Assembly (NCBI RefSeq): GCF_020217425.1
Contig: NZ_CP084092.1
Location: forward strand, 248,001 to 312,000
Direction: 5' to 3'
Length of the DNA: 64,000 nucleotides
Origin: Halomicrobium urmianum
GTDB lineage: Archaea; Halobacteriota; Halobacteria; Halobacteriales; Haloarculaceae
Within the stretch, counting starts at the first letter, position 1. Each line of letters starts with the position of its first letter. Positions 9,823 through 23,794 of the stretch are shown one piece after another. The notes below the pieces were generated by a model, which worked only from the letters and a program-made list of their open reading frames with translations, searched no databases and was not told the origin of the DNA. Both the position numbers and the translations under genes were made by a program.

Positions 9823-9940
9823 GTGGGTGAGTCAGACACACGTCCACATAGTAGTCCCGACTGTGCGGTGGTGCGCATCGCGACGCGCGGAACGACGAGT
9901 ACTTTTTTTGCCCGTTCCAGTGGCACTCCGTACCACCCAG

Positions 9941-11011
9941 ATGTCAGCAGTCGACCCCGCGTCCACGGCGGCCCGCGTCGCATCGCACCTCCGCTCGCTC
10001 GACGTCGACGGCCAGTCCTGGGTCACCGGCGTCTCGATCAACGGACTCCTCGCCGAGGGGAGCGAGGAGTCCGTCGAGGCCGCCCGGTCGCTCGTCGACA
10101 CGGCCGTCGCCACGCAGGACGACGATGGCCAGCTCGGATACGGCCCGAGCTACCCCATCGAGGTGTTCAGTCACGGCCGCGAGTACGAGGCCAGCTGGGA
10201 GCTGACGGCCAAGAAGGCCATGAACACCAACAACACGACCGCCATCGGCCACGGGGTCCTCGACTTCTACGAGCGGACGGGCGACGAGCGCTACCTCGAC
10301 GCGGCGACCGGGGAGTACGAGTCGCTGCTGTCCTTCGATCGGACGGCGACCGGCGGGATTCCCCACCACGACCCGGACGCGGCCGGCATCAAGTCGCTGT
10401 GGATCGACTCGGTGTACATGATGTGCCCCTTCTTCGCTCGCTACGCGGACGCCGCCGACGAGCCGGCGGCCTTCGACGAGGCGGTCGAGCAACTGCTCGT
10501 CCACGCGACTCACCTGCGCGACGACCGGACCGGGCTCTTCCGGCACATCTGGGTCGAGGAGCCCGACCACTACCCGCAGGGCACCTTCTGGGCGCGCGGG
10601 AACGGCTGGGCCGCCGCTGCGGCCGCCGACGTGCTGGAGCGCCTGCCCGCGGATCACCCGCGCCGCGACGAGCTGGTCGACCTGTTCCGGGACCACTGCG
10701 AGACGCTGCTCGACTACCAGGACGGCAGCGGGTTCTGGCACAACCTCGTCGACGACGCGGCCACCCCGCTGGAGTCGTCCGGGACGCTGATGTTCGCTTA
10801 CGCGTTCGACCGGGGCGTCGACCGGGATATCCTCGACGAGTCGCGCTTCGCCGACCCGGCCTCGCGAGCCGTCGAGGCCGTCGCCCGGACTGTCGACGAG
10901 GGCGGCGCCGTCCGTCGGATCGCGAGACCGCCCGGCGGTCCGGAGGCGCCGCTGACGACGACGCCGTACGGTCAGGGCTGGTACCTCATGGCCGTCGCAG
11001 CGCGGGACTGA
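9941..11011 (+). CDS. GH88/GH105 unsaturated glycuronyl hydrolase
   Basis: A 356-aa protein starting at MSAVDPASTAARVASHL. It has the (alpha/alpha)6 barrel pattern of GH88/GH105, with the hallmark FWARGNGW (about residue 212), KSLWIDSVYMMCPFFARYA (about residue 150) and the C-terminal TPYGQGWYLMAVA. These enzymes remove the 4,5-unsaturated uronate from oligosaccharides released by pectin or glycosaminoglycan lyases. No signal peptide is seen, so imported oligosaccharides would be the substrate. A T-rich box (TACTTTTTTT, about 9899-9908) precedes the start by about 37 bp. It is the clearest marker that this island handles uronate-containing plant or algal polymers. Confidence 0.9.
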   Translation: MSAVDPASTAARVASHLRSLDVDGQSWVTGVSINGLLAEGSEESVEAARSLVDTAVATQDDDGQLGYGPSYPIEVFSHGREYEASWELTAKKAMNTNNTTAIGHGVLDFYERTGDERYLDAATGEYESLLSFDRTATGGIPHHDPDAAGIKSLWIDSVYMMCPFFARYADAADEPAAFDEAVEQLLVHATHLRDDRTGLFRHIWVEEPDHYPQGTFWARGNGWAAAAAADVLERLPADHPRRDELVDLFRDHCETLLDYQDGSGFWHNLVDDAATPLESSGTLMFAYAFDRGVDRDILDESRFADPASRAVEAVARTVDEGGAVRRIARPPGGPEAPLTTTPYGQGWYLMAVAARD

Positions 11012-11071
11012 CCACCGCCGGCGTGGCCGTCCGACGGACACGCTTATTGGGAGACCTACTGATGTTCCAGT

Positions 11072-12433
11072 ATGGACCCCGATCCGAGCGATACACCGGC
11101 CAGTCAGCTGGCCGTCCCCGAAGAGACCATCCTCGAGGCGTGCGGCGAGACGCCGCTCCCGGAGCTGGGCGTCGTCGAACAGGTGTGGGACACCGACCCG
11201 ATACCGACTGACGACGTCGAACGACACGCGGCGCGGGCCGTCGAATCGCTCGACTTCGATGACGTACCCGAGGGCGGCGAGGTCGCTCTCGGCGTGGGAA
11301 GCCGCGGCATCGCCAACTTGCCGGCCGTCGTCAGCGGCGTCGTCGACGCCGTCGACGCGGCCGGCTACGAGCCGTTCGTCTTCCCGGCGATGGGGAGCCA
11401 CGGCGGCGCGACCGCCGAGGGACAGCGCGAGATGCTGAACGAACTCGGCGTCGACGAGTCGACGGTCGGCTGCGAGATCCGGTCGAGCATGGACGTCGTC
11501 GAGGTCGGCCGGACGCCCGAACGAGACGTCCCGGTCGTCGCCGACGCGAACGCAGCGGCGGCGGACGCCATCGTCCCGATCAACCGCGTCAAGCCCCACA
11601 CCGACTTCGACGGGACGGTCGAGAGCGGGCTCTCGAAGATGCTCGTCATCGGCATGGGCAAGCAGCGCGGCGCCAAGATCGCCCACGACTGGGCGGTCGA
11701 CTGGTCGCTGCGGAACATGATCCCGGAGATCACCGGACAACTGCTCGACGAACTGCCCGTCGTCGGCGGCGTCGCCATCCTCGAGGACCAGCGCGACGAC
11801 ACGACGCTGATCGAGGGCGTCCCACCGAGCGGGTTCCTCGATCGCGAGGCCGAGTTGCTGGAGACGGCCTACGAGATCATGCCGACGCTCCCGTTCGACG
11901 ACCTCGACCTCGTCGTGTTCGACCGCCAGGGCAAGGAGATCAGCGGCCAGGGGATGGACACGAACGTCATCGGCCGGCGGCCGTTCGCGATCCAGGAACC
12001 GGAGCCCGATCTGCCCGACATCAAGCGCATCTACACGCGCGGGCTCACCGAGGCCACCCACGGTAACGCGATGGGGATGGGCTCGGCCGACGTCGTCCAC
12101 GCGGACGTGGCCGCCGAACTGGACGCGTCGACGTCGCTCATCAACGCGCTCACCGCGAGCACGATCCGCGGCGTTCGGCTCCCGCCCGTCGTCGAGACGG
12201 ACCGAGCGGGGATGGTCGCCGCCCTCTCGACGATCGGCATCGTCGATCCGGAGACGGTGCGCGTCCTCCGCGCCCCGGACACGATGCACCTCCAGCGCCT
12301 GTACGCGTCGCCGGCGCTAGTCGAGGAGGCCCGCGGCCGCGACGACCTCCGCGTCATCGAGGAGCCCTCGCCGATCGAGTTCGACGCCGGTCAGTTCGCG
12401 GCCCCCTCGCTCCTGGAATATAGTAGAAATTGA
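11072..12433 (+). CDS. LarA-like (DUF2088) protein
   Basis: A 453-aa protein of the lactate racemase LarA superfamily. Supporting segments are FPAMGSHGGATAEGQ with a conserved His (about residue 111), IVPINRVKPHTDFDG (about residue 171) and SGLSKMLVIGMGKQRGA (about residue 187), then a large C-terminal domain. LarA enzymes use a nickel-pincer cofactor to racemise or epimerise 2-hydroxy acids, and distant members act on other sugar acids, so the exact substrate is not predictable. A TATA-like CTTATTGGG lies 29 bp before the start. The last four codons and the stop (SRN-stop) come from an 84-bp palindromic repeat, so the natural C-terminus may have been altered. Confidence 0.8.
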   Translation: MDPDPSDTPASQLAVPEETILEACGETPLPELGVVEQVWDTDPIPTDDVERHAARAVESLDFDDVPEGGEVALGVGSRGIANLPAVVSGVVDAVDAAGYEPFVFPAMGSHGGATAEGQREMLNELGVDESTVGCEIRSSMDVVEVGRTPERDVPVVADANAAAADAIVPINRVKPHTDFDGTVESGLSKMLVIGMGKQRGAKIAHDWAVDWSLRNMIPEITGQLLDELPVVGGVAILEDQRDDTTLIEGVPPSGFLDREAELLETAYEIMPTLPFDDLDLVVFDRQGKEISGQGMDTNVIGRRPFAIQEPEPDLPDIKRIYTRGLTEATHGNAMGMGSADVVHADVAAELDASTSLINALTASTIRGVRLPPVVETDRAGMVAALSTIGIVDPETVRVLRAPDTMHLQRLYASPALVEEARGRDDLRVIEEPSPIEFDAGQFAAPSLLEYSRN

Positions 12434-12502
12434 AACTATTTACACGTCGATGGCCACTCCGGGTGCCCCTCGAGTGTGTCAGTGCGGGCAATTTCTACTA
12501 TC
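12419..12502 (-). repeat. 84-bp palindromic hairpin repeat, copy 1 (inverted orientation)
   Basis: It starts TATAGTAGAAATTGAA and ends with CAATTTCTACTAT, with a partly palindromic core around CCACTCCGGGTGCCCC, so the whole unit can fold into one long hairpin. Three sister copies occur at 31822, 33631 and 37076. Judged by its asymmetric parts this copy is inverted relative to them. It overlaps the end of the LarA-like gene, and its last bases touch the left inverted repeat of the transposon. Confidence 0.8.
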
Positions 12503-12533
12503 AGTTGTTGGTAATACGATTTCTTTATTCAGT
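12502..12533. repeat. left terminal inverted repeat of the transposon
   Basis: The repeat begins CAGTTGTTGGTAATACGATT and ends TTTATTCAGT. It pairs with the reverse complement of 19098-19129, with only three mismatches (positions 5, 14 and 18). It lies 61 bp beyond the stop codon of the Cas5-like gene. Confidence 0.9.
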
Positions 12534-12594
12534 CTGCACCGCGAATTTTTGTCGGGCGATTCACCGTCGTTCATGGATTCACTCACGAGTGTAA

Positions 12595-13506
12595 TCAGTC
12601 CTTTCCCTCAGGTTCCTGATACTGTTCGCCGAGGGGCTTCAGCCGCAGTTCTCCGAAGCCGTATCGGGAGTGAGACCCGACCCGCTGGAGGCCGTTCTTC
12701 GCGGTCTCCACCGGGCGGTCGCCGAGGTACTTCACGACCTGACCGTGATCGACCGTCTCCAGCCGGAACACCTCGCGTTGCTCCAGTATCTTCTCCTCGC
12801 GGAGCCGGAGATCGTCGCGGTTCTCGGCCCACCACCACGGGATGGAGCGGTCGTTCGCCTCTGGATACTCCGACGCCAGGACGAACGGCGTCACGAGTTC
12901 GATGAGGTACGTCTCCGCGCCTTCGAGCCGCGAGTAGTCCAGTTCGTCGAGGTCAACCATCTGCGTGTCCTTCAGTTGAACCTCGCCGTAGCCGTAGTTC
13001 CGCTTGCCGCCGAACTGGAGGCCCTCCAGCACATCCTCGCCGAGCGGGAGTGCCGCCGGGTCATCAGCATGCAGATAGGCGTGAACGTACCATTTCGTCG
13101 TCTGCTGCTGTTTCCGCTGGTCTTCCCGGCGGCCCATGATGGTCTCGTGGGCGAGCGCCGGGTGGCCGCCCTGGACGCGGAGATCGTGCGTATTCAGCGC
13201 GTCCCGAGCGCGGGTATCCAGAAGCCACGGGTGCATCGCCTCCCGCTGGAGGAAGAGGTCGTCGTAGGCCTCGACGTCGGGCAGGCCGCTCCCGAGGTAC
13301 GGGCGGATGCCCGACTGCGTGTGTTCCTCGGGAAACGTCCCGAACTGTCCTGGCACGAAGACGCCGTGACTGGCCGACACCGCCGCGTGCGTCTCGGGAT
13401 CGAGGTGCTGGCCGAGCGCGTGCAGGATGGCGTTCCCCGAGACGTAGTACGGGTGGCCGATGTAGTCCATCCGCAGCTCCCACAGGACTTGCTGAATCGC
13501 CGTCAT
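12595..13506 (-). CDS. Cas5-like RAMP protein (HRAMP-type)
   Basis: A 303-aa protein. Its ATG overlaps the stop of the preceding reading frame (ATGA), which fixes the start at MTAIQQVLWELRMDYIGHPY. Two glycine-rich loops of the RAMP type are visible: FGGKRNYGYGEV at about 165-176 and RVGSHSRYGFGELRL at about 275-289. This is the layout of Cas5/Csm4-like proteins, which bind the 5' handle of a guide RNA and cap the Cas7 filament. No clear Cas6-like catalytic His context is evident, so RNA processing cannot be claimed. It is the last gene of the seven-gene leftward operon. Alternative: a two-RRM Cas6-like protein. The RAMP assignment rests on motifs, not on a database match. Confidence 0.7.
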   Translation of the reverse strand: MTAIQQVLWELRMDYIGHPYYVSGNAILHALGQHLDPETHAAVSASHGVFVPGQFGTFPEEHTQSGIRPYLGSGLPDVEAYDDLFLQREAMHPWLLDTRARDALNTHDLRVQGGHPALAHETIMGRREDQRKQQQTTKWYVHAYLHADDPAALPLGEDVLEGLQFGGKRNYGYGEVQLKDTQMVDLDELDYSRLEGAETYLIELVTPFVLASEYPEANDRSIPWWWAENRDDLRLREEKILEQREVFRLETVDHGQVVKYLGDRPVETAKNGLQRVGSHSRYGFGELRLKPLGEQYQEPEGKD

Positions 13507-14242
13507 CGGTCGGGCCTCCATTCAGCGTAGTCTTCGACGTACTGGAGCGCGGCACTCCAGGACTGCATCCGCCGAAGGTTGGCATCGAGGGTCATGTCGT
13601 ACTTGTCGTGGCCGGTATCGAGCGGATGCGCTGTCAGGCGATTCCACGCCGACGCCCACGACCGCCAGGACGACTCCCGAGGCGGGCCGACGGATTCCCG
13701 TCTGCGCTCGCGTCGATGCGGAACGCGAAGCGCTCGCCGTCGAAGACGGTGCGGAACGGGACGACCTCGCCCGCCGAATCGACGATGAGCCGGAGATCGG
13801 GGAACTCGTTCCCGGCCTGGTAGTTGTCCAGCAGCGCCGCCACGAGCAGCGTGTGGTACTTCAGGCTCGTGTACGGGTGATACACCGACTCGTTGAACGC
13901 GGCGGCGACGTCGGACGCCAGCCACCGCTCGTGCGCGGTCTCTGCCTGTTCGACGGCGAGTAGGTCGCTGACTTCGCTCTCGATGGTCGCCCGTGAGAAC
14001 TCGCCGGGGTCGTAGGCGGTCTCGCCGGTGAGCAGGGACAGCCGGTAGTGATCGTCGTGGGTCGGGACGGTCTGCTCCTGCTTCTGCTGAGGCCGCGAGA
14101 GCGCCGCTGCATCGCCGTCTGCGCCCTCGGGAACCGACTGATTCACGGGAACGCCAGCGAACTCCTCGCGGGCGTCACCGTGGCTCTCGCCGGTGAACTT
14201 GTGGGCGTCGTGCCGGAAGGCGGCGAGCATCGCGTCCGTCAC
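13503..14242 (-). pseudogene. uncharacterised HRAMP-operon protein with a -1 frameshift
   Basis: Translation starts at an ATG overlapping the Cas7-like stop (ATGA). It runs 182 codons in one frame (MTDAMLAAFRHDAHKF to RIDASADG near 13697). That frame then gives an Arg/Gly-rich nonsense tail ending at 13634, while the -1 frame continues with plausible protein (ESVGPPRESSWRSW, NRLTAHPLDTGHDKYDM) and stops at 13503. That stop overlaps the next ATG, as at every other junction of the operon. A reconstructed product would be about 246 aa. One lost G in the GGG run near 13697-13699 would explain it. I recognise no domain; by position between Cas7- and Cas5-like genes it would be the conserved unknown HRAMP subunit. 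Decay, sequencing error and programmed slippage are all possible. Confidence 0.65.
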
Positions 14243-15105
14243 GATTCAGCCTCCACGCGAGCGACGAGTTCCGCCTCGAACTCCGGGAGGTACTCCTCGC
14301 TCCACTCGGCGTCTTTGTCGTCCATCTTGTTCGTGTTGCCCTTCCCTCGGTCGAAGACGCGACGGAGTTCGGTCTCGCTGTAGAGCGGATTCACGAGCTC
14401 GCAGTCCACGATCCCGCCGCCGAAGTTCCGCGCGCCGCCGAGCTGGTGCATGAAGTCGGTCTTGTGAGCGTCGAGGTAGTCGATGGCCTCGGCGAGCAGC
14501 GCGACGAACTCGGGCTTCGTCTCCCGGAAGGAGAGGTGCCAGCAGCCATCGAGGTTGGCGACGGCGTCCAGTTCGGCGTTCCGAAGCGGTTCTCGGTTGT
14601 CTTCCTCGTTCCGGGAGACGACGTTCCGGTTGAGCCGCCGGTAGTGGCCCTCTGCCTGCCCGCGAGTGTAGTCCACGCTCGAACGGACAGGCGAGAACTT
14701 GATCGGGCGACGCATCACCTTCCCGGGGCGATTCCCGAAGCCTCCGAAGAGATCGAGAATTACGCACCCGTTGCCGTCGTCGTCTTCGAGGCAGTCGCCT
14801 TTCGGGTGGTACCCGGCGTCGAGGTCGCGGTTGTAGACGCCGTCTTTCCGGAAGTTCGCGTTGGCCTCGCCGGGGTGACAGGCGGTGCCGCCGCGCTCTT
14901 GGATGGCCTTCTCCATCCCGTGGCGGAGCCAGCCCGAGAGGCTGAACGCCGGGATGATGCCGCCGATCTGGTTCTGCGGATCGTTGTCCTCGTAGTTGCC
15001 GTTCGAGGCGTGGTGTCTGTCGGTCATGATGCTATCGCCGACCACCAGCAGGTCGGTCTGGATTCGCACGAACACGTCGCGGTCGATGTCTTCAATCATC
15101 TGCAT
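14239..15105 (-). CDS. Cas7-like RAMP protein (HRAMP-type)
   Basis: A 288-aa protein with the marks of a Csm3/Csf2-type Cas7 backbone subunit: a first strand VFVRIQTDLLVVGDS, the IPAFSLSGWLRHG segment (51-63) that parallels IPGSSLKG-type motifs, DLFGGFG (118-124) and the glycine-rich loop LGGARNFGGG (222-231). Cys76, His77, His100, Cys105 and Cys114 cluster in an insertion and might bind zinc. Cas7 proteins polymerise along a guide RNA, and no obvious catalytic Asp for RNA cleavage can be named. The start overlaps the end of the TnpB-like gene by 14 bp, and the stop overlaps the next ATG, implying coupled translation and fixed stoichiometry with its neighbours. Confidence 0.75.
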   Translation of the reverse strand: MQMIEDIDRDVFVRIQTDLLVVGDSIMTDRHHASNGNYEDNDPQNQIGGIIPAFSLSGWLRHGMEKAIQERGGTACHPGEANANFRKDGVYNRDLDAGYHPKGDCLEDDDGNGCVILDLFGGFGNRPGKVMRRPIKFSPVRSSVDYTRGQAEGHYRRLNRNVVSRNEEDNREPLRNAELDAVANLDGCWHLSFRETKPEFVALLAEAIDYLDAHKTDFMHQLGGARNFGGGIVDCELVNPLYSETELRRVFDRGKGNTNKMDDKDAEWSEEYLPEFEAELVARVEAES

Positions 15106-15754
15106 AGTAGGTCAGTTCAGTTGGTTCAGCGAGATTCGCGCGCTGTGCGATACTGAGGGCGGCGCTCTCGTCCCGGGAGACCGTGCCGACGGGACAGTCC
15201 TCGGTAGTGCACTCCACGGCGTCCTGGCTGACGGAACCGAGTTCGCCGCAGACGTGGCACTGCTGCGTCGTGTACTTCGGATCGACGTGCCTCACCGGGA
15301 TACCCGCGTCGCGGGCCTTCACCGCGATGGCGTGCTGGAGTGCCGGGAGCAACCACGTCCCGACGTCGTCGGCTGTCCGCCGCTCCCACAACGACGCCCC
15401 ACAGAACGACAGGTCTTCGAGCACCAGCATCGGCCCGGCGAACTCCTGAGCGTACCGAACAACGCGGACAGCCGCGTCGTAGACCTGCGGGCGGATCTGG
15501 TGCCAGAGCGCCGCGAACAGTTGGATCTGTCCCTCGGTGCTGTCGAACTTCGCACCCTGGAGCGCCCGCATCGCTTCCACGAGCGCCTCGTGGCGCGTCC
15601 GGATGTGGCTACCCTCGATGGTGAACGCCGACTCCACGTCGCCGTCCGCCGGGGCCGCCGCGATGAGGTTCTTCACGCCGACGTCCACGCCGACCGGCGT
15701 GACGCCGACCGAGTGGCGCTGGCCGACCGTCGTCGGGAGTGGGGTGCTGCTCAT
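15092..15754 (-). CDS. minimal TnpB-like RuvC nuclease with zinc finger
   Basis: A 220-aa protein consisting almost only of the TnpB/Cas12 catalytic half. RuvC-I is VGVDVGVKN (Asp24), RuvC-II is MLVLEDLSF (Glu113) and RuvC-III is SRDESAALSIAQRA (Asp195). A zinc finger lies between the last two (Cys166, Cys169, Cys182, Cys187). The KARDAGIPVRHVDPKYTTQQC stretch is typical of TnpB (residues 146-166). Full TnpB proteins are about 370-420 aa; here the N-terminal wedge/REC part that binds guide RNA is missing, because RuvC-I begins 24 residues from the start. The start overlaps the previous stop by ATGA, so this is not a random truncation. It probably serves as the DNA-cleaving effector for the Cas5/Cas7-like complex encoded next to it. 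Confidence 0.85.
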   Translation of the reverse strand: MSSTPLPTTVGQRHSVGVTPVGVDVGVKNLIAAAPADGDVESAFTIEGSHIRTRHEALVEAMRALQGAKFDSTEGQIQLFAALWHQIRPQVYDAAVRVVRYAQEFAGPMLVLEDLSFCGASLWERRTADDVGTWLLPALQHAIAVKARDAGIPVRHVDPKYTTQQCHVCGELGSVSQDAVECTTEDCPVGTVSRDESAALSIAQRANLAEPTELTYYADD

Positions 15755-16068
15755 CGGCTACTCACCCACTCGTCGCGGTCGGTCGGGTCGTAGGCCACTA
15801 TCTCGTCAAGGAACTGTTCGACCTCGGTGATCGTCCGGAAGGCGTTGAGGTTGACCGTTTCGACGTAGTTCTCGTCTGCGGTGTAGACGTCGTAGACGCG
15901 GACGCCGTTCTCGTACTGGCACCGGCTGTACAGCTTCAGGCCGTGGTAGTCCAGGACGACGCCGTCCGGGTACGCGCCCTCCATCATCTCCTGGAGGAAG
16001 TCCGAGGTCTCGTAGGGGAGATCGTCGCCACGCGGCGCGATCACATCGGTCGGGTCGGGAAGCGTCAT
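15751..16068 (-). CDS. hypothetical 105-aa acidic protein of the HRAMP operon
   Basis: The protein starts at MTLPDPTDVIAPRGDD, at an ATG overlapping the preceding stop (ATGA), and ends overlapping the TnpB-like start. The central part (YPDGVVLDYHGLKLYSRCQY) and the C-terminal ITEVEQFLDEIVAYDPTD look like a compact alpha/beta fold. I recognise no family. It could be a small complex subunit or a regulator. The operon coupling on both sides argues that it is a real gene. Confidence 0.7.
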   Translation of the reverse strand: MTLPDPTDVIAPRGDDLPYETSDFLQEMMEGAYPDGVVLDYHGLKLYSRCQYENGVRVYDVYTADENYVETVNLNAFRTITEVEQFLDEIVAYDPTDRDEWVSSR

Positions 16069-16535
16069 TCCGACCCCTCCAGTTCGTTCATCCGCCGCGT
16101 CTCTTCGTCGATGATGGTGGTCAGCTGGTCGCTGGCATCTTCGTCGGCGTCGATGCCGTTGTAGTTGATGTCGCAGGCGACCCACCCGGCGCAGTCGCCA
16201 CACAGCTGGCCGGCGAGCATCCCGGGGAGGCCGGCGGCACCGAGCGGGAACTCCACCTCGAAGTAGAAGCCGGGCGAGACGTCGTCGCCACACTGCATGC
16301 ACTGCCCGTCGCCCATCTCGTGGTTCTGGACGTGCTGGCACGCCCGGCAGATGTCGGCTTCGAGCGGGGCGATGGTTTCGACGGTCGTCCGTTCGACCAT
16401 CTCGGCGGGCTTCTCGGCGTCACAGATGTCACACACCTGCGTGTCCGGGGCATCGTCGTCGGTGCTGGCCGCTTCGACCGTCGGGAGCGTCGTGAGCGCC
16501 GCCGCAGCGCCGAGGAACGTTCGACGGTGCATCAT
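16065..16535 (-). CDS. Tat-signal-like protein with four CxxC pairs
   Basis: A 156-aa protein beginning MMHRRTFLGAAAALTTLP, which looks like a twin-arginine signal (Arg4-Arg5, then a hydrophobic core and a VEAAS cleavage-like site). The body has four CxxC pairs (35/38, 63/66, 79/82, 112/115), so it is probably a zinc or iron-sulfur binding protein. The start is fixed by the ATGA overlap with the zinc-ribbon gene upstream. Export would be surprising for a subunit of a nucleic-acid complex; the N-terminus may instead be a false Tat match. Cysteine-rich subunits such as Csf1 occur in some type IV CRISPR systems, but I see no direct similarity. Confidence 0.7.
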   Translation of the reverse strand: MMHRRTFLGAAAALTTLPTVEAASTDDDAPDTQVCDICDAEKPAEMVERTTVETIAPLEADICRACQHVQNHEMGDGQCMQCGDDVSPGFYFEVEFPLGAAGLPGMLAGQLCGDCAGWVACDINYNGIDADEDASDQLTTIIDEETRRMNELEGSE

Positions 16536-16744
16536 GACCACCCGCCGTTGCACTTGCACCCGCCGTCGCGGAGATCGCGGCGGCGCATCGCTTCGATGCC
16601 GCAGCCGGTGCACCGGAAGTAGTCGTAGCCGGTGTAGTCACCGTGCTTGTCGAACTCCGGGATCGGGCCTTCGATTCGGGCTTCGTCGGTCGATTCGTTC
16701 GTCGTGCCGGAAGTCTGAAGTCCGGCGGATGTCTTCATTGACAT
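16532..16744 (-). CDS. small zinc-ribbon protein, first gene of the HRAMP operon
   Basis: A 70-aa protein starting at MSMKTSAGLQTSG (an internal ATG two codons later is equally possible). It carries YFRCTGCGIEAMRRRDL followed by GGCKCNGGWS, giving two closely spaced cysteine pairs, typical of a small zinc ribbon. The stop overlaps the next ATG (ATGA). As first gene it follows directly on a 7-bp stem hairpin (GCTTCGG/CCGAAGC, 16745-16763) and a longer structured region. A longer upstream start would extend through these structures and is unlikely. Confidence 0.65.
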   Translation of the reverse strand: MSMKTSAGLQTSGTTNESTDEARIEGPIPEFDKHGDYTGYDYFRCTGCGIEAMRRRDLRDGGCKCNGGWS

Positions 16745-16756
16745 GCTTCGGTTGCT

Positions 16757-16821
16757 CCGAAGCGCGGTCGGGCGTGGTACCAACACGCTCCGGCCAACTT
16801 CTGACCGGCTTCCCGCGCTTC
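16757..16821 (-). ncRNA. candidate structured leader RNA of the HRAMP operon (three-way junction)
   Basis: A perfect 9-bp inverted repeat (GAAGCGCGG at 16759-16767, CCGCGCTTC at 16813-16821) encloses two hairpins. One is GCGTG/CACGC with a 7-nt loop (16772-16788). The other is CCGGCCA/TGACCGG with a 5-nt loop (16790-16808). In the second hairpin the single mismatch becomes a G-U pair only if the - strand is transcribed, the strand of the Cas-like operon. It lies 13 bp upstream of the first start codon. It could be a guide scaffold, a leader regulating the operon or simply GC-rich chance pairing; expression is not demonstrated. Confidence 0.35.
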
Positions 16822-16829
16822 CTATTGAC

Positions 16830-16907
16830 AAGTATGGGAACCCACCCACTTAGTTCTTTGCCAATTGTGGGAAGGTTGCCTAATGTGGGAGTTTTACAAA
16901 TGCGGGA
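16830..16907. repeat. four short iterons (AATGTGGGA-like) in the divergent promoter region
   Basis: Near-repeats AAGTATGGGA (16830), AATTGTGGGA (16863), TAATGTGGGA (16881) and AAATGCGGGA (16898) recur at about 17-18 bp steps, with the first two separated by about two steps. They lie between the divergent operons in the most AT-rich part of the element. Such spacing, somewhat over one and a half helical turns, suggests an operator for a multimeric regulator or transposase. It is too short and irregular for a CRISPR array. Confidence 0.5.
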
Positions 16908-16925
16908 ACACTACCATATATAGGA

Positions 16926-17153
16926 ATGGCACCAAAACCATCCGACCAAGATATGGCACGACGGAGAGCGATGCTCACCGATACTGAGCGCGAGTTGCTG
17001 GACAGCGACGAGAAGTCAGACCGCTACTACCAAGCAGTTTCGCGCATCAGGCGAAAGATCAACGAAGAACTGACCGAGGACATCAGCCTCCTCGAAGAGA
17101 ATCATCCCGAGCTACTCGGCGAACTGCGCGAAGTCGTCTGCGAGGACGACTGA
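16926..17153 (+). CDS. small acidic haloarchaeal protein, possible regulator
   Basis: A 75-aa protein starting at MAPKPSDQDMARRR with LTDTERELL, RYYQAVSRIRRKI and LEENHPELLGELREVVCE. I recall this pattern (TxxERELL, then a helix with RIRRKI and an ENHPELxxELREVVC tail) in small proteins encoded near haloarchaeal mobile genes, but its function is unknown to me. It is helical and could bind DNA or a partner protein. Its start lies immediately after the iterons and TTTTACAAA (16892-16900), a possible TATA box about 30 bp upstream, so it may regulate both divergent operons. Confidence 0.7.
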   Translation: MAPKPSDQDMARRRAMLTDTERELLDSDEKSDRYYQAVSRIRRKINEELTEDISLLEENHPELLGELREVVCEDD

Positions 17154-17189
17154 TCCCGAAATTGAAGACATCGCATTCTGACCAGGATG

Positions 17190-17197
17190 ATTTAAAA
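17190..17197 (+). promoter_or_regulatory. TATA box of the transposase gene
   Basis: The AT-rich box ATTTAAAA is centred about 26 bp upstream of the GTG at 17220, the expected distance for a leaderless archaeal transcript. This supports GTG as the transposase start. Confidence 0.6.
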
Positions 17198-17219
17198 GGG
17201 ATCAGAAACATCTACGCTC

Positions 17220-19052
17220 GTGGACGAAGACGCCGAACGCGACCCGGAATCGCCCGGCGAAATAGCGGAGCGACGTGAGTTTGTCAGCGAACTCGACAGC
17301 GAATTCCGGGAGCGACGGCAAGAACTGGAGGAGAAGGCCGCCGCAGACCCGTGGGATTACTGGCCTGAAACGCACGACGACAGGTACAACGAGGCCGATT
17401 ACGAGATTCCGCCGCTGTGGGAGCGGCTGGATTCAAACGCACGCCGGATTCGGCGGCGGATGGAACATACCGACATCTCGAACCCGCTCGCGGCCACTAT
17501 CGGGACGACACGCCTGTTTCCTCACTACTGGTCGCCCGGCGACAACGACGACCTGACTCGAAAACTCGACGGGAACGACGCCACCCGCGTCTACCTCTAC
17601 CTCGACCTCTCCCCCATCGCCGAGTACCGGATCGCAGACCGGCTCAAGATCGGGGCCATCCAGAACGAACTGGACATCGAGGACAAGGTGAGCCAGTCTA
17701 CGCTGAATCGGATGCCCGGTCGGATGGGCGCGCGGGAGCGCACATTCTACGCCAGTGAGACGGAGACGCTCGTGCGCCAGTGGCAAGGGACGAAGTTCGA
17801 GGATTGGGTGCGGGAGCCGACGCCTGAAACCATCGCGCCCGACGGTGAGGGCGTCCCGCCGGTACAGACTATTGTGCGCGAGCTGCGGTCGGAGACGTTC
17901 AAGTACATCCGGTTGAAGCGGGACGGCAGTATCGAAGCCTCGAAGGACGGGTCGATGCGCGTGTTGGTGGCTGCCGCGAATGGGAACGAGTTCGTGAACG
18001 ACGCGGCGGAGAACCTCAACCTCAAGCCCTGGTACGACGGTTCTGAGATTCCGACCGGACAGACGCTCATTCACCACATCCGGAAGTCCTCCCGAGAGGA
18101 GATCACGCGGATGTTCATGGAGGCGAACGAGCCGTTGTTCGAGATCGCCGACGATGACGAGTACGACTACTTCCCTGACAAGGCAGAGGTCGCCATCGAC
18201 ATCACGGACTGGCCGTACTTCGGTGATCCAGACGCGGACGAGTATGTTCGCGGGACGAAGTCGGGACGGAACTACGCGAGGGCGTGGAAGTACATCACGC
18301 TCTCGCTGGTCGGGACGGACACGCCGCTCGTGCTGCTCGTTCTCCCCGTCAGGAAGCGCTCGGAGGCACCGCAGTACGTCCGACGGCTCCTGCGGCTGGC
18401 AAGCCAGTACCTCGACCTCCACCGCGTCTACCTGGACGCCGGGACTGAGTTCTACAGCGAGGACACGATCTCCACGGTCAATGAGTTCGACTTGGAGCTG
18501 GTGATGCAGGGCCGAAAGGCCGGCTCAGACATCAAGCACCTCCTGAACGGCATGGGGCGGCTGAATCTGGACTCGTCGTACTACCCCTACGGCGTCGGCG
18601 GCCTCGACGAGGACAACTACTACGCGGTGGGCATCAAGTCGGAGAAGAAGTCCCGACGTCGGAAATCGGAGCCCGATGAGCCGATGGACGACTACACGTA
18701 CTTCTACACGAACCTCGATCCAAGCGAGGTGCCGCCGGAGGAACTCGCCAGCGACTACCGGCGTCGGTGGGGCATCGAGACCGGGTTCCGCGTGATCAAA
18801 GAGGAGTTCCTCCCGAAATCGGCGTCCCCGGATTCGAGGGTACGGACGTTCTACTTCAACTTCGCGGCCCACATGTACAACATCTGGACGGCAGCGAACA
18901 TCCGGCGCGCGGAGGAGCTCGATGCCGACCTGAGCAAGGAGAAGCAGTTCACTGCGGGACGGCTGATCCAGGCCATCGAAGACGACCCGTACGACCTCGA
19001 CATTCCAACGGAACCACCAGAAACCGGACATGTATTCGGCGAGTTGTTTTAG
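17220..19052 (+). CDS. DDE transposase, IS4 superfamily
   Basis: A 610-aa protein starting at GTG. The catalytic triad fits DDE enzymes: Asp327 in AIDITDWPYFGD, Asp406 in YLDAGTEFYSE and Glu520 in YRRRWGIETGFRVIK. The last segment matches the IS4 signature Y-(2)-R-(3)-E-(6)-K exactly. The roughly 300-residue N-terminal extension is longer than in simple IS4 transposases and probably binds the terminal repeats. No frameshift is seen, so it may be active. The gene ends 45 bp before the right inverted repeat. Its single copy inside repeats that match well indicates that it mobilises the whole 6.6-kb unit. The IS subgroup (for example an ISH-type family) I cannot decide by eye. Confidence 0.88.
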   Translation: MDEDAERDPESPGEIAERREFVSELDSEFRERRQELEEKAAADPWDYWPETHDDRYNEADYEIPPLWERLDSNARRIRRRMEHTDISNPLAATIGTTRLFPHYWSPGDNDDLTRKLDGNDATRVYLYLDLSPIAEYRIADRLKIGAIQNELDIEDKVSQSTLNRMPGRMGARERTFYASETETLVRQWQGTKFEDWVREPTPETIAPDGEGVPPVQTIVRELRSETFKYIRLKRDGSIEASKDGSMRVLVAAANGNEFVNDAAENLNLKPWYDGSEIPTGQTLIHHIRKSSREEITRMFMEANEPLFEIADDDEYDYFPDKAEVAIDITDWPYFGDPDADEYVRGTKSGRNYARAWKYITLSLVGTDTPLVLLVLPVRKRSEAPQYVRRLLRLASQYLDLHRVYLDAGTEFYSEDTISTVNEFDLELVMQGRKAGSDIKHLLNGMGRLNLDSSYYPYGVGGLDEDNYYAVGIKSEKKSRRRKSEPDEPMDDYTYFYTNLDPSEVPPEELASDYRRRWGIETGFRVIKEEFLPKSASPDSRVRTFYFNFAAHMYNIWTAANIRRAEELDADLSKEKQFTAGRLIQAIEDDPYDLDIPTEPPETGHVFGELF

Positions 19053-19097
19053 CGACCTCGAAGCCCTCTGAGACGCCTACTCAGTTTCAGGCCGAGA

Positions 19098-19129
19098 ACT
19101 GAATAAAGAAACCGTGTTACCAACTACTG
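19098..19129. repeat. right terminal inverted repeat of the transposon
   Basis: Read on the - strand it begins CAGTAGTTGGTAACACGGTT and ends TTTATTCAGT, matching 29 of 32 bases of the left repeat. A small inverted repeat TCAGTT/AACTGA (19081-19102) overlaps its inner edge and may end transcription of the transposase. Confidence 0.9.
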
Positions 19130-19158
19130 TTAAGTCACTCTCTGCCGTTGGCGTTTCC

Positions 19159-20175
19159 ATGGAGTACGTCAGACTCGGCACCACAGGACTCGAAGTCTCA
19201 CCGATCTGTTTCGGCACCTGGCGCTTCGGGCTGGAACACGAGGACAGCGGCGTGATGGAGACCGACCGCGAGGAGGCCCACGAACTGCTGGACGCGTTCG
19301 CCCAGCGCGGGGGCAATTTCATCGACACGGCCAACGGCTACGGCGAGGGCCGCAGCGAGACGTGGATCGGCGACTGGCTCGAGGACCAGGATCGCGAGGA
19401 CTTCGTGATCGCCTCAAAGTGCTACTGGTCGCAGGTCTCGCGCTTCCAGGAGAACCTCTCGCGGAAGAACGTCCGCGCCGAGGTCGAGGGGTCGCTGGAC
19501 CGCCTCGGCACGGACTACCTGGACGTTCTGTACCTGCATCGCTTCGACGACGGGACGCCGATCGAGCGGACGCTTCGGACGCTCGACGACCTCGTCAGCG
19601 AGGGGAAGGTCCACTACGTCGGCATCTCGACGTGCGACGCCTGGAAGCTCACCAAGGGCCTCTGGCAGGCCGACGTCAACAACTACGAGGCCTTCACCGT
19701 CACCCAACCCGAGTACTCGGCTGTGTACCGGGATCCGGTCGTCGACGACCTGGACCAGCCGCCCGAGCACAAGGAACCCATCGGAGAGTACCTCGACGTG
19801 TGCGAGGACCAGGACCTGGCAGTGTGCCCCTACTCGCCGCTGCACGGCGGCTTCCTCACCGGCAAGTACGAGCGCGTCGACGGTGAGATCAGGGCACCCG
19901 ACGGCTCCCGCGCCGATATCGACGAGAAGTTCGAGTCCGACTACGTGGCCGAGGCGGCCTGGCAGGTCCTCGAAGAGGTCCGCGCAGTCGCGGAGGAGGT
20001 CGACGCGACGCCGGCCCAGGTCTCCCTGCGCTGGCTGATGGACCACGAGCGGTTCACCTGCGTCCCCATCGTCGGTGCCCGTACTGTCGACCAGCTCGAC
20101 GAGAACGTCGGGGCCGTCGACGTCGATCTCTCCGACGACCAGTGGGCGCGCATCGACGACGCCATCGACGTCTGA
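19159..20175 (+). CDS. aldo/keto reductase
   Basis: A 338-aa protein starting at MEYVRLGTTGLEVSPICFG, the usual N-terminus of the family. The catalytic tetrad is visible: Asp and Tyr in FIDTANGYGEGRSE (about residue 60), Lys in VIASKCYW (about residue 90) and His in DVLYLHRFDDG (about residue 133). The C-terminal cofactor region has CVPIVGARTVDQLDENV. It probably reduces a sugar or aldehyde with NAD(P)H. Its upstream region now begins 30 bp after the transposon end, so its original promoter has likely been replaced. An upstream in-frame start inside the transposon repeat is less likely. Confidence 0.9.
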   Translation: MEYVRLGTTGLEVSPICFGTWRFGLEHEDSGVMETDREEAHELLDAFAQRGGNFIDTANGYGEGRSETWIGDWLEDQDREDFVIASKCYWSQVSRFQENLSRKNVRAEVEGSLDRLGTDYLDVLYLHRFDDGTPIERTLRTLDDLVSEGKVHYVGISTCDAWKLTKGLWQADVNNYEAFTVTQPEYSAVYRDPVVDDLDQPPEHKEPIGEYLDVCEDQDLAVCPYSPLHGGFLTGKYERVDGEIRAPDGSRADIDEKFESDYVAEAAWQVLEEVRAVAEEVDATPAQVSLRWLMDHERFTCVPIVGARTVDQLDENVGAVDVDLSDDQWARIDDAIDV

Positions 20176-20273
20176 CCGAGACAGGCACCGTGGGTCGACC
20201 GACCGTCGGCTCGCCTGCGGCACGCGACCAATTTTAAGGGGTGACGGGAAGACGGTTCTAGTGAGACGAGCAG

Positions 20274-21365
20274 ATGACCGAACAGGCCAAACTCGACCGG
20301 TTAGACGCGTATCTCGCGACGAACGACCTCGAATCGGTGTGGTTCGGGACGCCGCCAATGTTCGCCTGGCTCACCGGTGGCAGCAACCTGATCGCCCGGG
20401 AGGGTGCGGCCGGCGTCGCCGCCGCCGGCTACGACGGTGCGGAGATCACCGTGGTCACGGCGAACATCGAGGGACAGCGACTCCTCGACGAGGAGATCTG
20501 GGCCGACGTTCGCCTCGTGGAGTACCCGTGGCACGAGAGCGGCGTCGAGGAGGCGGTCACGGAGATCGCGCCGACGCCGGCGGCCGCGGACTTCGCCTGC
20601 GGCGACCTCGACCGGATCGAGCGATCGGACCTGACCCAGCCGCTGACCGACGGCGACGTCGAGCGCTATCGGGCGCTGGGCCGCGAGACGGCCGAAGCTG
20701 TCGAGGCGGTCGCGAGGGACGCCGCTCCGTCCGACACCGAGCTCGAACTGGCCGCGGACCTCCACCGAGCACTCCAGCGGCGTCGGATCGAGTCGCCCGT
20801 GGTTCTGGTCGGTGGCGAGGATCGCGTCCAGCGCTACCGGCACTTCACGCCGACTGACACCGAAGTCGGCGGCTACGTAGTCCTGACCGTCGTCGGCGCC
20901 CGCAGCGGTCTCAATGCGGCTGTCACGCGAACGGTCGCGTTCGATGCCGCTCCTGACTGGCTCGAGGAGCGCTACGCGGACGTCTCCAGGGTCGCGGCGA
21001 CCGTGGCCGCCGCGACGCAGCGCACCGGGGTCGAGGGCGGTACGGCCGGCGACGTGTTCGAGGCGATCCAGTCGGCGTACGAGGAACTGGGCTACGGGGC
21101 CGAGTGGGAGAACCACCACCAGGGCGGCGCGCTCGGCTACGCATCGCGGGAGTGGATCGCGACGCCCGACCACGACGCGCCCGTCGAACTCCCGACAGCC
21201 TACGGCTGGAATCCGACCGTCGAGGGTGCCAAGACCGAGGACACGATCCTCGTCACGGAGACGGGGATCGAGGTGCTATCCGACACTGGGGACGTCCCGC
21301 GCCGGACTGCCTCGGCGGTCGGGTGCGAATTCGAACTCGCTATCCCGGATCTACTCGTCCGATAG
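20274..21365 (+). CDS. M24 (Xaa-Pro peptidase-like) protein lacking metal ligands
   Basis: A 363-aa protein with a creatinase-type N-terminal domain (SVWFGTPPMFAWLTGG) and a pita-bread C-terminal domain. In active M24 peptidases the box V-x-D-x-G-x(9)-D-x-T-R-T supplies two metal-binding Asp. Here the aligned segment is VLTVVGARSGLNAAVTRTV, with Thr and Ala at those places. The His region (ENHHQGGALGY) and the two Glu (PTVEGAKTEDTILVTETG) persist. It is therefore probably not a metallopeptidase and may bind or modify another ligand. AATTTTAAGG lies about 40 bp upstream. It is the last + strand gene before the GH2 pair. Confidence 0.8.
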   Translation: MTEQAKLDRLDAYLATNDLESVWFGTPPMFAWLTGGSNLIAREGAAGVAAAGYDGAEITVVTANIEGQRLLDEEIWADVRLVEYPWHESGVEEAVTEIAPTPAAADFACGDLDRIERSDLTQPLTDGDVERYRALGRETAEAVEAVARDAAPSDTELELAADLHRALQRRRIESPVVLVGGEDRVQRYRHFTPTDTEVGGYVVLTVVGARSGLNAAVTRTVAFDAAPDWLEERYADVSRVAATVAAATQRTGVEGGTAGDVFEAIQSAYEELGYGAEWENHHQGGALGYASREWIATPDHDAPVELPTAYGWNPTVEGAKTEDTILVTETGIEVLSDTGDVPRRTASAVGCEFELAIPDLLVR

Positions 21366-21549
21366 CGCCCAGGATCGACGGGCTCGGCGGCGGCCTCGTC
21401 GTCTATCTGACCGTCGGACGAGCGCGCTCGGCCCGACTGTCCCACGGTCTGCGCGATACCCCGAGATTACTCCGTCTGACCCGTCGGCGTGGTCGGCTGG
21501 GGCCTCGCCCTCGCCGGCAAGACCAGTAGTCGACGGGTTCCGGCCGGTC

Positions 21550-23490
21550 CTACGGTCCGTCTCCGTCATCGAGAGTCGTTGCAGCGTCGATCAACGCCTC
21601 GTTGGCCTCGCGGACCCGGTCGGCGTCTGGCTTCACTGCCTTCCGGTCGTAGGTCAGCAGGCCGTTGTTCTCCGTCTCGACATCTGTGAGTTGGGTGTAC
21701 ACTGCCGAACTCAGTCCGCTCTGCCCGGCGAATAATCGCGTTAGCTCCAGTTTCCCAACGTAGGCCTCGGTCAGTTCCGCCGGCGAGGAGTAGGCGTCGT
21801 AGGAGTAGCTCTCCGATCCCCACTCGTGGCCGTCTAGCGCGAGGCCGAGACCGCCGAACTCGCCGATCACGGAGAGCCGGTCGTCGGTCGGCGGTGCGGG
21901 TCCGGGACCGGGGTAGTTGTGGAAATCTAGAATGGCACCGCACTCGCAGTCGCCGCCGTCGACGTTCGCCCCGCTGTTGGGATTGACCAGCCGCTCGGGG
22001 TCCCGTTCCCGTACGGCCTCGGTGATCCGTTCGGCGTCGTAGATCCCCCACCCCTCGTTGAACGGTACCCACGCCGTGATCGACGGGTGGTTGCCGAGCT
22101 GGTCGATCATCGCCCGGAGTTCGGTCTCGAACTGGTCGCGCCGCTCGCCCTCGGGTGTGCCCGTGAAGTCGGCCGTCGAGGGCATGTCCTGGTGGACGAC
22201 CAGCCCCAGCCGATCGGCGTGGTAGTACCACCGCCGCGGCTCAATCTTGACGTGCTTGCGGACCGTGTTGAACCCCAGTTCCCGGTGTTTTTCCAGGTCG
22301 AAGATCTGCGCCTCGTCGGTCGGCGGCGTATAGATCCCGTCGGGCCAGAACCCCTGGTCGAGCGCAGCGAGGGCGAAGGAGACCTCGCCGTTGAGCGTCA
22401 TCCGCTGGTGGCCGTCGATCTCCTCGTAGCCGATCGAGCGCATCCCGAAGTAGCTCTCGACGGCGTCGACCGCTTCGCCGTCCCGGAGCAGCCGCACCGT
22501 CACGTCGTAGAGGAACGGGTCCTCGGGCGACCACGTCTGGGGGTCGGGAATCGAGAGCGACAGTTCCTCGCCCGGCGCACCTGTCGCAGTCGCGGCCGTC
22601 TCCCCGTCGGCTCTCGCGGTCGCCTCGACGGTCAGATCCGCAGCGGCGTCGGTCGCGTCGACGGTCAGGGCGAGCCGCTCGTTCTCGAGGTCCGGCGTCG
22701 TGTCCAGTCCCGTGACGTGCGGAGACGGCACCGGTTCCATCCAGACGGACTGCCAGATGCCTGAGGTCGGCGTGTACCAGATAGGCCCGTCGTTGGGGTG
22801 TTGTTTGCCCAGCGTCTGCCCCTCTTCGGTCTCGTCGGCGACGCCGACGATAAGCTCCTGTCGGCGGACGTCGCTGACCGCGTCGGTGATGTCGACCGCG
22901 AAGTGATCGTAGCCACCGACGTGACTCCCGACCTCCTCGCCGTTGACGTAAACGGTCGCCTCGTAGTCGACCGCCTCGAAGTGCAACAGGAGGTGTTCGT
23001 CGTCTCCTACGTCCCAGTCCTCGGGGACCTCGAAGGTGCGGCGGTACCACATCTGGTCTTCCTCCCGGGCGATTCCCGACAGCGCCGACTCGACGGGAAA
23101 CGGGACGAGGATTCCCACTTCCAGTCCCCGTTCGGTGGGTGGATCGCCCAATTCGTCGACGGCCTCGAACCCCCAGACGCCGTTGAGGTGGCGCCAGCGG
23201 TCCCGGACCAGTTGCGGTCGGGGATACTCTGCGTGGGGGTCCTCCGGATCGACCGCTTCGAACCACGGGGTCGCGAGCGGTGGTTCAGCCGGGGTCCAGT
23301 CGTGGTCCCCGGGTCCGGGCCACGGATCGCGCCCGGCCTCAAGTGCGCTACAGCCAGCGAGGCCGGCCATACTCACCGCGGCCGAGGTCCGGAGGAGCCG
23401 TCGTCGACTGAGGCCGCCGTCCTGTGTGCTGGTGCCGTTTACTGACGCCGTCCGCCGTCGCTCCTTCTGCTCTGAGTCGTCCCTGTTCAT
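21550..23490 (-). CDS. secreted GH2 family glycosidase, Tat lipoprotein
   Basis: A 646-aa protein starting at MNRDDSEQKERRR. It has a twin-arginine signal (SRRRLLRTSAAVSMAGLAGC) with lipobox Cys47, so it would be exported folded and anchored to the membrane. The GH2 sugar-binding domain (HFEAVDYEATVYVNGEEVG), immunoglobulin-like domain and TIM barrel follow. The acid/base Glu is in AWVPFNEGWGIY (about residue 480) and the nucleophile Glu in LSVIGEFGGLGLA (about residue 550). It probably acts on beta-galactosides, glucuronides or mannosides outside the cell. It is followed on the same strand by a cytoplasmic GH2 paralogue, suggesting stepwise degradation. Confidence 0.9.
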   Translation of the reverse strand: MNRDDSEQKERRRTASVNGTSTQDGGLSRRRLLRTSAAVSMAGLAGCSALEAGRDPWPGPGDHDWTPAEPPLATPWFEAVDPEDPHAEYPRPQLVRDRWRHLNGVWGFEAVDELGDPPTERGLEVGILVPFPVESALSGIAREEDQMWYRRTFEVPEDWDVGDDEHLLLHFEAVDYEATVYVNGEEVGSHVGGYDHFAVDITDAVSDVRRQELIVGVADETEEGQTLGKQHPNDGPIWYTPTSGIWQSVWMEPVPSPHVTGLDTTPDLENERLALTVDATDAAADLTVEATARADGETAATATGAPGEELSLSIPDPQTWSPEDPFLYDVTVRLLRDGEAVDAVESYFGMRSIGYEEIDGHQRMTLNGEVSFALAALDQGFWPDGIYTPPTDEAQIFDLEKHRELGFNTVRKHVKIEPRRWYYHADRLGLVVHQDMPSTADFTGTPEGERRDQFETELRAMIDQLGNHPSITAWVPFNEGWGIYDAERITEAVRERDPERLVNPNSGANVDGGDCECGAILDFHNYPGPGPAPPTDDRLSVIGEFGGLGLALDGHEWGSESYSYDAYSSPAELTEAYVGKLELTRLFAGQSGLSSAVYTQLTDVETENNGLLTYDRKAVKPDADRVREANEALIDAATTLDDGDGP

Positions 23491-23563
23491 GACTGGCCCC
23501 GACGCTCGTGTTACCATCCCACACGGGTAGTTACCAAATAAATCTGTGGTCCCGTCTCGACCG

Positions 23564-23752
23564 TCAGTCGGTCCCCCAGCCGTCGCCGTCCGCCACGGCC
23601 CGCTCGTAGTCGCCGTGCCGATCGCGAGCGAACGGAAACACGTCGGCGGCGAACGGCCACACGCCGACTGAGCGTCCTCCCCGACGACACCCTGGAACTA
23701 CGTCCTCGCGGTCGATCCGACCGATCTCGCCGGCAAGATCGAACCGGCGCAT
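23564..23752 (-). pseudogene. possible short gene remnant between the GH2 genes
   Basis: A leftward frame of 62 codons (MRRFDLAGEIGRIDRED to YERAVADGDGWGTD) has protein-like composition, notably VWPFAADVFPFARDRHGDY. It is too short for an enzyme and I recognise no family. It may be a leftover of a deleted glycosidase or a chance frame in GC-rich DNA. Confidence 0.2.
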
Positions 23753-23794
23753 CAGGAGTGGGGCAGTCAGCGGTAACCCGGCACTCCGATTCTC

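Follow-up and report, generated by a model that had tools for sequence, protein, structure and literature searches.

Few cis-regulatory RNAs are known or predicted in archaea (PMC7247131). The leaders of two ribosomal-protein genes, S15 in Halobacteria and eL15 in euryarchaea (PMC7247131), are structured, covarying RNAs of the 5' untranslated region (5'-UTR), as is the element described here, and S15 comes from the same group of organisms. Those leaders precede ribosomal-protein genes, whereas the present family is found ahead of many unrelated genes of mobile elements, and its structure stops exactly at the AUG. Translational riboswitches and attenuators likewise have a strand common to an aptamer-like fold and a start-codon hairpin; our leader differs in being archaeal, in having no known ligand, and in a strand exchange that we infer.

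Two haloviruses offer further parallels. The early lytic region of phiH1 (repR and the T4 transcript; MK002701) likewise sets a divergent repressor gene against an early operon with an untranslated leader. For that virus, control by antisense RNA has been reported, and the stretch of its early region that we searched gave no match with our class I or class II models. The intergenic repeats of HF2, as described in the sections of PMC8707807 consulted, are likewise repeated promoter-bearing elements, with a TATA box about 26 nt before the start; they are 58- and 29-bp promoter repeats, and those sections report no leader structure of the present type.

The operon downstream of our element belongs to HRAMP (haloarchaeal RAMP), which the portions of two reviews available to us (PMC8730458; PMC12669027) describe as diverged Cas5- and Cas7-like proteins with a nuclease and no array, as here. 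These portions give the nucleases as mostly HNH or PD-(D/E)xK, whereas our operon encodes a TnpB/Cas12f-like protein with only the RuvC end and a zinc domain, and they make no mention of an RNA partner of HRAMP. We describe a leader family that is widespread, strongly covarying and set directly against the start codon. It connects viral operons with an array-less CRISPR derivative, and it makes two matters testable: (i) translation control in haloarchaeal mobile elements, and (ii) the RNA, if any, that HRAMP binds.

Predicted fold of the leader

The window is the whole stretch of DNA that was analysed, 64,000 nucleotides of a Halomicrobium urmianum contig (NZ_CP084092.1, 248,001 to 312,000), and positions are counted from its first letter. 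An original prediction had proposed a 9-bp stem around a 5-bp and a 7-bp hairpin at 16757-16821, and a further 7-bp hairpin at 16745-16763 before the start codon. Both were found on the minus strand. There, the folding energy of 16757-16821 is -34.3 kcal/mol (z-score -3.73; 0 of 200 dinucleotide shuffles as good), and the fold consists of a 9-bp P1 (GAAGCGCGG/CCGCGCUUC), a 5-bp hairpin and a 7-bp hairpin that contains one U-G pair. The plus strand folds more weakly (-30.9, z -3.03, 2 of 200 shuffles). The 80 nt from 16742 to 16821 thus consist of P1, P2 and P3, which form a three-way junction, and of the additional hairpin, P4, which ends right at the AUG:

16742-16821, minus strand: whole class I structured leader, which begins at the predicted 5' end of the transcript and reaches the start codon (R1 score 90.3 bits, E 1e-20)
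16813-16821, minus strand: P1 5' strand, GAAGCGCGG; partner 16759-16767; pairing in 97.2% of cells, both partners changed (two-sided changes) in 6 of 9 pairs
16790-16808, minus strand: P2 hairpin, CCGGUCA-GAAGU-UGGCCGG; 7 of 7 pairs with two-sided changes
16772-16788, minus strand: P3 hairpin, GCGUG-UUGGUAC-CACGC; 6 of 6 modelled pairs with two-sided changes, the strongest covarying columns
16759-16767, minus strand: P1 3' strand, CCGCGCUUC; its GCUUC is also used by P4
16745-16763, minus strand: P4 hairpin, GCUUCGG-AGCAA-CCGAAGC, 7 bp, the alternative partner of GCUUC; 92.8% paired, 5 of 7 pairs two-sided, 87 cells, 0 of 500 shuffles
16742-16744, minus strand: AUG of the first operon gene, adjoining the 3' arm of P4; a terminal ATG is found across class I and class II leaders

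P4 overlaps the 3' arm of P1 within 16757-16763. Because GCUUC (16759-16763) belongs both to the P1 3' arm and to the P4 5' arm, full P1 and full P4 are mutually exclusive. In the window the P1 form and the P4 form have the same computed energy (both -34.3, difference 0.0 kcal/mol), and the median gap between the two forms is 0.6 kcal/mol over 102 homologues. The folding energy of the entire 82-nt leader is by itself modest (z -1.99) and alone unconvincing; the decisive support for the predicted structure is comparative.

Covariation across homologues

The original prediction had named compensatory changes in homologues among its tests, and such changes are present in both the junction and P4. 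On A3, a MAFFT alignment not fitted to structure, seven P1-P3 pairs changed on both sides (0 of 500 shuffles). On A6, a model-fitted alignment of 102 matches, 19 of 22 P1-P3 pairs did so, with 259 cells, 95.3% of cells paired and 0 of 500 shuffles; the rows of these alignments are related genomes, and the large alignments are fitted to the model structure. As a control on A6, sliding the partner by 1-3 columns lowered pairing to 32-46%. When we ranked column pairs of the model-fitted alignment by mutual information, over the leader and 45 downstream bases, the pairs of P3, P4, P2 and P1 came out on top. RNAalifold on the first MAFFT alignment recovered P1 alone.

A difference between the strands, noted at first for a single pair that becomes G-U on the minus strand, extends to the whole family: P1 and P2 together hold 133 sense G-U cells and 17 A-C cells. 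Over all modelled pairs of the 102 leaders the counts are 136 and 67, with 45 of the 67 A-C cells on two helix-end pairs. This excess of G-U over A-C on the sense strand points to RNA on the operon's strand and not to a DNA palindrome.

Two details of the fold may be added. Columns 78 and 83 of A6, in the P3 loop of class I, covary strongly (MIp 0.467) with 45% standard pairs, possibly reflecting a non-canonical loop contact. A k-turn at the P1 junction (GA..GA), judged by eye, is not claimed because the 5' GA varies.

Distribution of class I and class II leaders

Among 195 related genomes, a blastn-type search with an 86-nt sequence found homologues in 27, and 21 of these homologues, the window among them, were used to build covariance model R1. 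R1 defines class I and matched 138 of 391 sampled haloarchaeal genomes, over a third. A broader model, R2, matched 82 of the 195 relatives. Run over 247 genomes of the phylum, R2 matched 12, all from the same order or closer, and found no class I match outside the order. These counts describe a sample of genomes, with rough covariance-model E-values, and the gene calls around leaders come from a simple script. The genome of the window carries a second class I leader (contig 1, 572721-572799, plus strand, 42.4 bits). At two other loci (L034, 4809-6010; L036, 4178-5519), two near-identical class I leaders, spaced about 1.1-1.3 kb, have one gene apiece.

By inspecting HRAMP loci that have no class I leader, we noticed a second class with the same overall plan. 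Class II leaders have GAAGCCCGG, a small CUCG-capped hairpin and a longer P3 whose loop is of the UGGAA type; where class I has P4, they carry GGGUUC..GAACCC-AUG. Covariation is also present in the class II model, R3, which was built from 20 leaders. At a lax E of 0.05, R3 matched 114 of the 195 relatives' genomes. Some genomes have many copies, several of them in tandem with one gene per copy, and the weakest of these multi-copy matches may be false. At four loci (L332, L333, L334 and L336), a class II leader and one gene form a repeated unit, present three or four times within about 10 kb or, at L334, as two copies about 10.7 kb apart. Many genes of these repeated units are SWIM zinc-finger-like, forming an expanded leader-gene family.

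Leaders also occur on plasmid records of Halobacterium and Natrinema, in the haloviruses ChaoS9, Humcor1 and HJTV-4, and on several IMG/VR contigs. Plasmid pNRC200 of Halobacterium salinarum NRC-1 has one (NC_002608, 219756-219854, minus strand). In ChaoS9 and Humcor1, the leader heads an operon read toward orc1. A scan of the window region against Rfam 15 returned only chance-level matches, none at a curated score, and we found no comparable leader in the part of the literature that we covered. The leader thus apparently represents a large RNA family not described before, a claim of novelty that partial literature coverage does not prove.

Promoter, start codon and first gene

If the element is a 5'-UTR, it should lie between a promoter and a start codon. 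We examined the DNA on both sides of the leaders and give two further features of the window here:

16848-16859, minus strand: predicted core promoter, BRE AAAGAA and TATA-like CTAAGT, about 27-38 nt upstream of P1
16708-16719, minus strand: fixed-distance motif in the first gene, nt 26-37 after the A of ATG (121 aligned loci)

The window's own promoter box matches weakly, with an offset of about one base. Across 128 distinct aligned class I loci, numbered from the first base of P1, a BRE A stands at -36/-35 (77-81%), followed by a TATA-like box from -32 to -28, and BRE and TATA are likewise phased upstream of class II leaders. Promoters of halovirus HF2 have a TATA that begins at -26, according to the sections of PMC8707807 consulted, and from this spacing we infer that transcription may start at P1 or a few bases before it. 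Downstream, ATG follows directly in 95 of 97 class I leaders and in 42 of 44 of class II, and the gap between P4 and the AUG has a median of 0 and a maximum of 3 nt. The leader therefore lies on the sense strand between a predicted promoter and a start codon and, being flanked by a phased promoter and the start codon, has the appearance of a complete 5'-UTR.

Initiation by a Shine-Dalgarno sequence is often not used in haloarchaea. Such a signal was weak in the P4 loop, where GGAG occurs in 28 of 101 loops (10 expected by shuffling) and GGAGG in only 3. In the motif of the first gene, nt 27 is always A/T, accompanied by A29, C36 and G37, while the downstream proteins are many and unrelated. 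Since nt 27 is a wobble position and is always A/T in GC-rich genomes, the motif is likely conserved at the nucleotide level. We rejected a pairing between leader and motif, as no leader-downstream column pair was among the top 45 by mutual information in the model-fitted alignment.

A probable cis-acting leader with competing helices

Taken together, the sequence comparisons make it probable that the operon mRNA begins with this element as its untranslated leader, and that the leader belongs to an RNA family of haloarchaea which tunes expression in cis and serves operons of mobile elements and viruses as well as nearly all HRAMP operons. The promoter would set transcription, probably under the divergent small regulator described below, and the leader would then tune expression in cis. 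P1 would close the three-way junction and P4 the hairpin against the AUG, with the two competing for GCUUC. Any factor that stabilises P1-P2-P3, be it a protein, ions, a ligand or the speed of transcription, would free P4 and alter ribosome access to the AUG; the converse would also hold, with an opposite shift between the P1 fold and P4.

The predicted competition between P1 and P4 suggests a switch at translation initiation. As in a riboswitch, exclusive helices are predicted and are nearly isoenergetic, and most of the positions that P1 and P4 share allow either pairing. At one shared position, where the middle base is changed in 13 class I leaders, P4 pairing was kept in 12 and P1 pairing in 1. 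A changed middle strand thus follows P4 more than lower P1, so lower P1 may be dispensable, and an arrangement of fixed upper P1 and P4 without switching is possible. Full covariation of all three strands of P1 and P4 is supported only in part. Precedents exist for control of this kind: mutating stem loops in haloarchaeal 5'-UTRs abolishes translational control (PMC2636863), and translation of a leaderless haloarchaeal gene was blocked when a tetracycline aptamer was put in front of it (cited in PMC8241225). These precedents make start-codon control by a leader plausible in haloarchaea.

The closeness of P4 to the AUG would also suit a site of RNA processing, where nuclease cleavage at the P4 base would convert the transcript into a leaderless mRNA starting at the AUG. 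Haloarchaea have many leaderless mRNAs and translate them well (PMC8241225), but conservation of P1-P3 would then have no obvious need, and we consider such processing rather unlikely.

Association with HRAMP operons

The leader of the window heads an operon on the minus strand, with a small gene reading away on the other side:

16532-16744, minus strand: first ORF of the operon, 70 aa, with an open frame from the AUG next to P4; N-terminus conserved in relatives
16065-16535, minus strand: second ORF, 156 aa, with a weak Tat-signal-like N-terminus (TAT_signal E 0.0076, below the Pfam cut-off)
15751-16110, minus strand: third ORF, 119 aa, kept with HRAMP in some relatives
15092-15754, minus strand: short TnpB/Cas12f-like protein, 220 aa, RuvC C-terminal part and TNB zinc domain (Pfam Cas12f1-like_TNB 4.7e-10; NCBIfam guided_TnpB 3.6e-18, below its cut-off)
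14239-15105, minus strand: Cas7-like RAMP protein of HRAMP (PADLOC Csm3 9.4e-5; homologues in 49 of 195 genomes)
13503-14242, minus strand: HRAMP middle gene, with an apparent frameshift near 13640 (split over two frames here, a single open frame in relative L030)
12595-13521, minus strand: Cas5/Cmr3-like RAMP protein of HRAMP (PADLOC Cmr3 7e-8)
16926-17153, plus strand: divergent small gene, candidate repressor; homologues annotated winged helix-turn-helix

The diverged Cas5-like and Cas7-like proteins, in a haloarchaeon, identify the operon as HRAMP. The apparent frameshift may mean that the HRAMP copy in the window is inactive, or it may be an assembly error.

The expectation of a conserved structured RNA in the direction of the RAMP operon was borne out well beyond the window. 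Among the 54 HRAMP cas7 loci in the 195 genomes, 47 have a leader upstream (14 class I and 33 class II), located 49-1637 nt from cas7 on the same strand; an opposite-strand leader occurs at 0 of the 54. Two further leaders came from additional DNA (G059 contig 10 and G140), giving at least 49 of 54, and leaders precede HRAMP in both Cas7 clades. We estimate a chance expectation of about 0.03 from leader density, and the excess is not explained by a generic leader by itself. However, 237 of the 284 leader matches listed (about 83%) have no HRAMP Cas7 within 3 kb, and 47 have one. The association is real, yet HRAMP is one cargo among many.

The original prediction had read the RNA as a guide for an array-less complex. 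In that reading, the leader would be cut from the operon mRNA and bound in trans by the Cas5- and Cas7-like proteins as a guide or scaffold. The near-constant presence of a sense-strand leader at HRAMP operons favours this, as does the lack of any CRISPR-like repeat array in the 17 kb around the operon (9000-26000 of the window). The guide reading is not supported by the wider comparison: most of the listed leaders stand apart from HRAMP, viral copies exist, one Cas7 family is served by two structural classes, and the structure is tied to a promoter and has a start codon at its end. Moreover, a CRISPR-type guide would have a variable segment of about 20 nt or more and would occur mainly with its effector genes. 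Loops and joints of the leaders have medians of 3-6 nt, and the maxima of the three hairpin loops are 19, 7 and 14 nt; a guide-length variable segment is not among them. We therefore hold a trans-acting HRAMP RNA to be unlikely. Without such a segment, with viral and non-HRAMP copies, and with the link to promoter and AUG, a cis-acting leader is the best reading.

A related idea is that the leader, once cut from the operon mRNA, serves as the RNA component of the HRAMP complex, or that viral transcripts are recognised by HRAMP through this leader. We regard this as decidedly doubtful. If true, an array-less CRISPR derivative would use its own 5'-UTR in place of crRNA, and haloviruses and HRAMP would share an RNA currency.

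Neighbouring genes and remaining alternatives

The first genes after the leaders vary widely: many encode small proteins of unknown function, HRAMP is in the minority, and some are SWIM zinc-finger-like by weak matches. Upstream, on the divergent side, 52 of 128 leader loci have a member of the family of the window's divergent gene and 40 have one of a second small HTH family, together 92 of 128; one of these families is HTH by Pfam, and relatives of the other are annotated as winged HTH.

The same leader ahead of unrelated genes, a small regulator-like gene opposite it at most loci and the tandem leader-gene units of some genomes would all be compatible with an element that acts as DNA, namely operator palindromes, a cruciform or a recombination site for exchange of operon cassettes. 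Against this stand the roughly 8 to 1 ratio of sense G-U to A-C in P1 and P2, the promoter phased on one side, with P4 within 0-3 nt of the AUG on the other, and the conservation of loops besides stems, which leave a DNA-level function very improbable.

The omega-RNAs of TnpB are located at the 3' end of tnpB. Although the operon encodes a TnpB/Cas12f-like protein, a gene of this kind is present at only 8 of 128 leader loci and the leader sits upstream, ending at a start codon, which makes an omega-RNA-like partner of that protein extremely unlikely.

Adjoining the divergent small gene of the window is an ISH3-like DDE transposase gene (17220-19052, plus strand), and blocks of transposase, regulator and leader like this one recur in several relatives.
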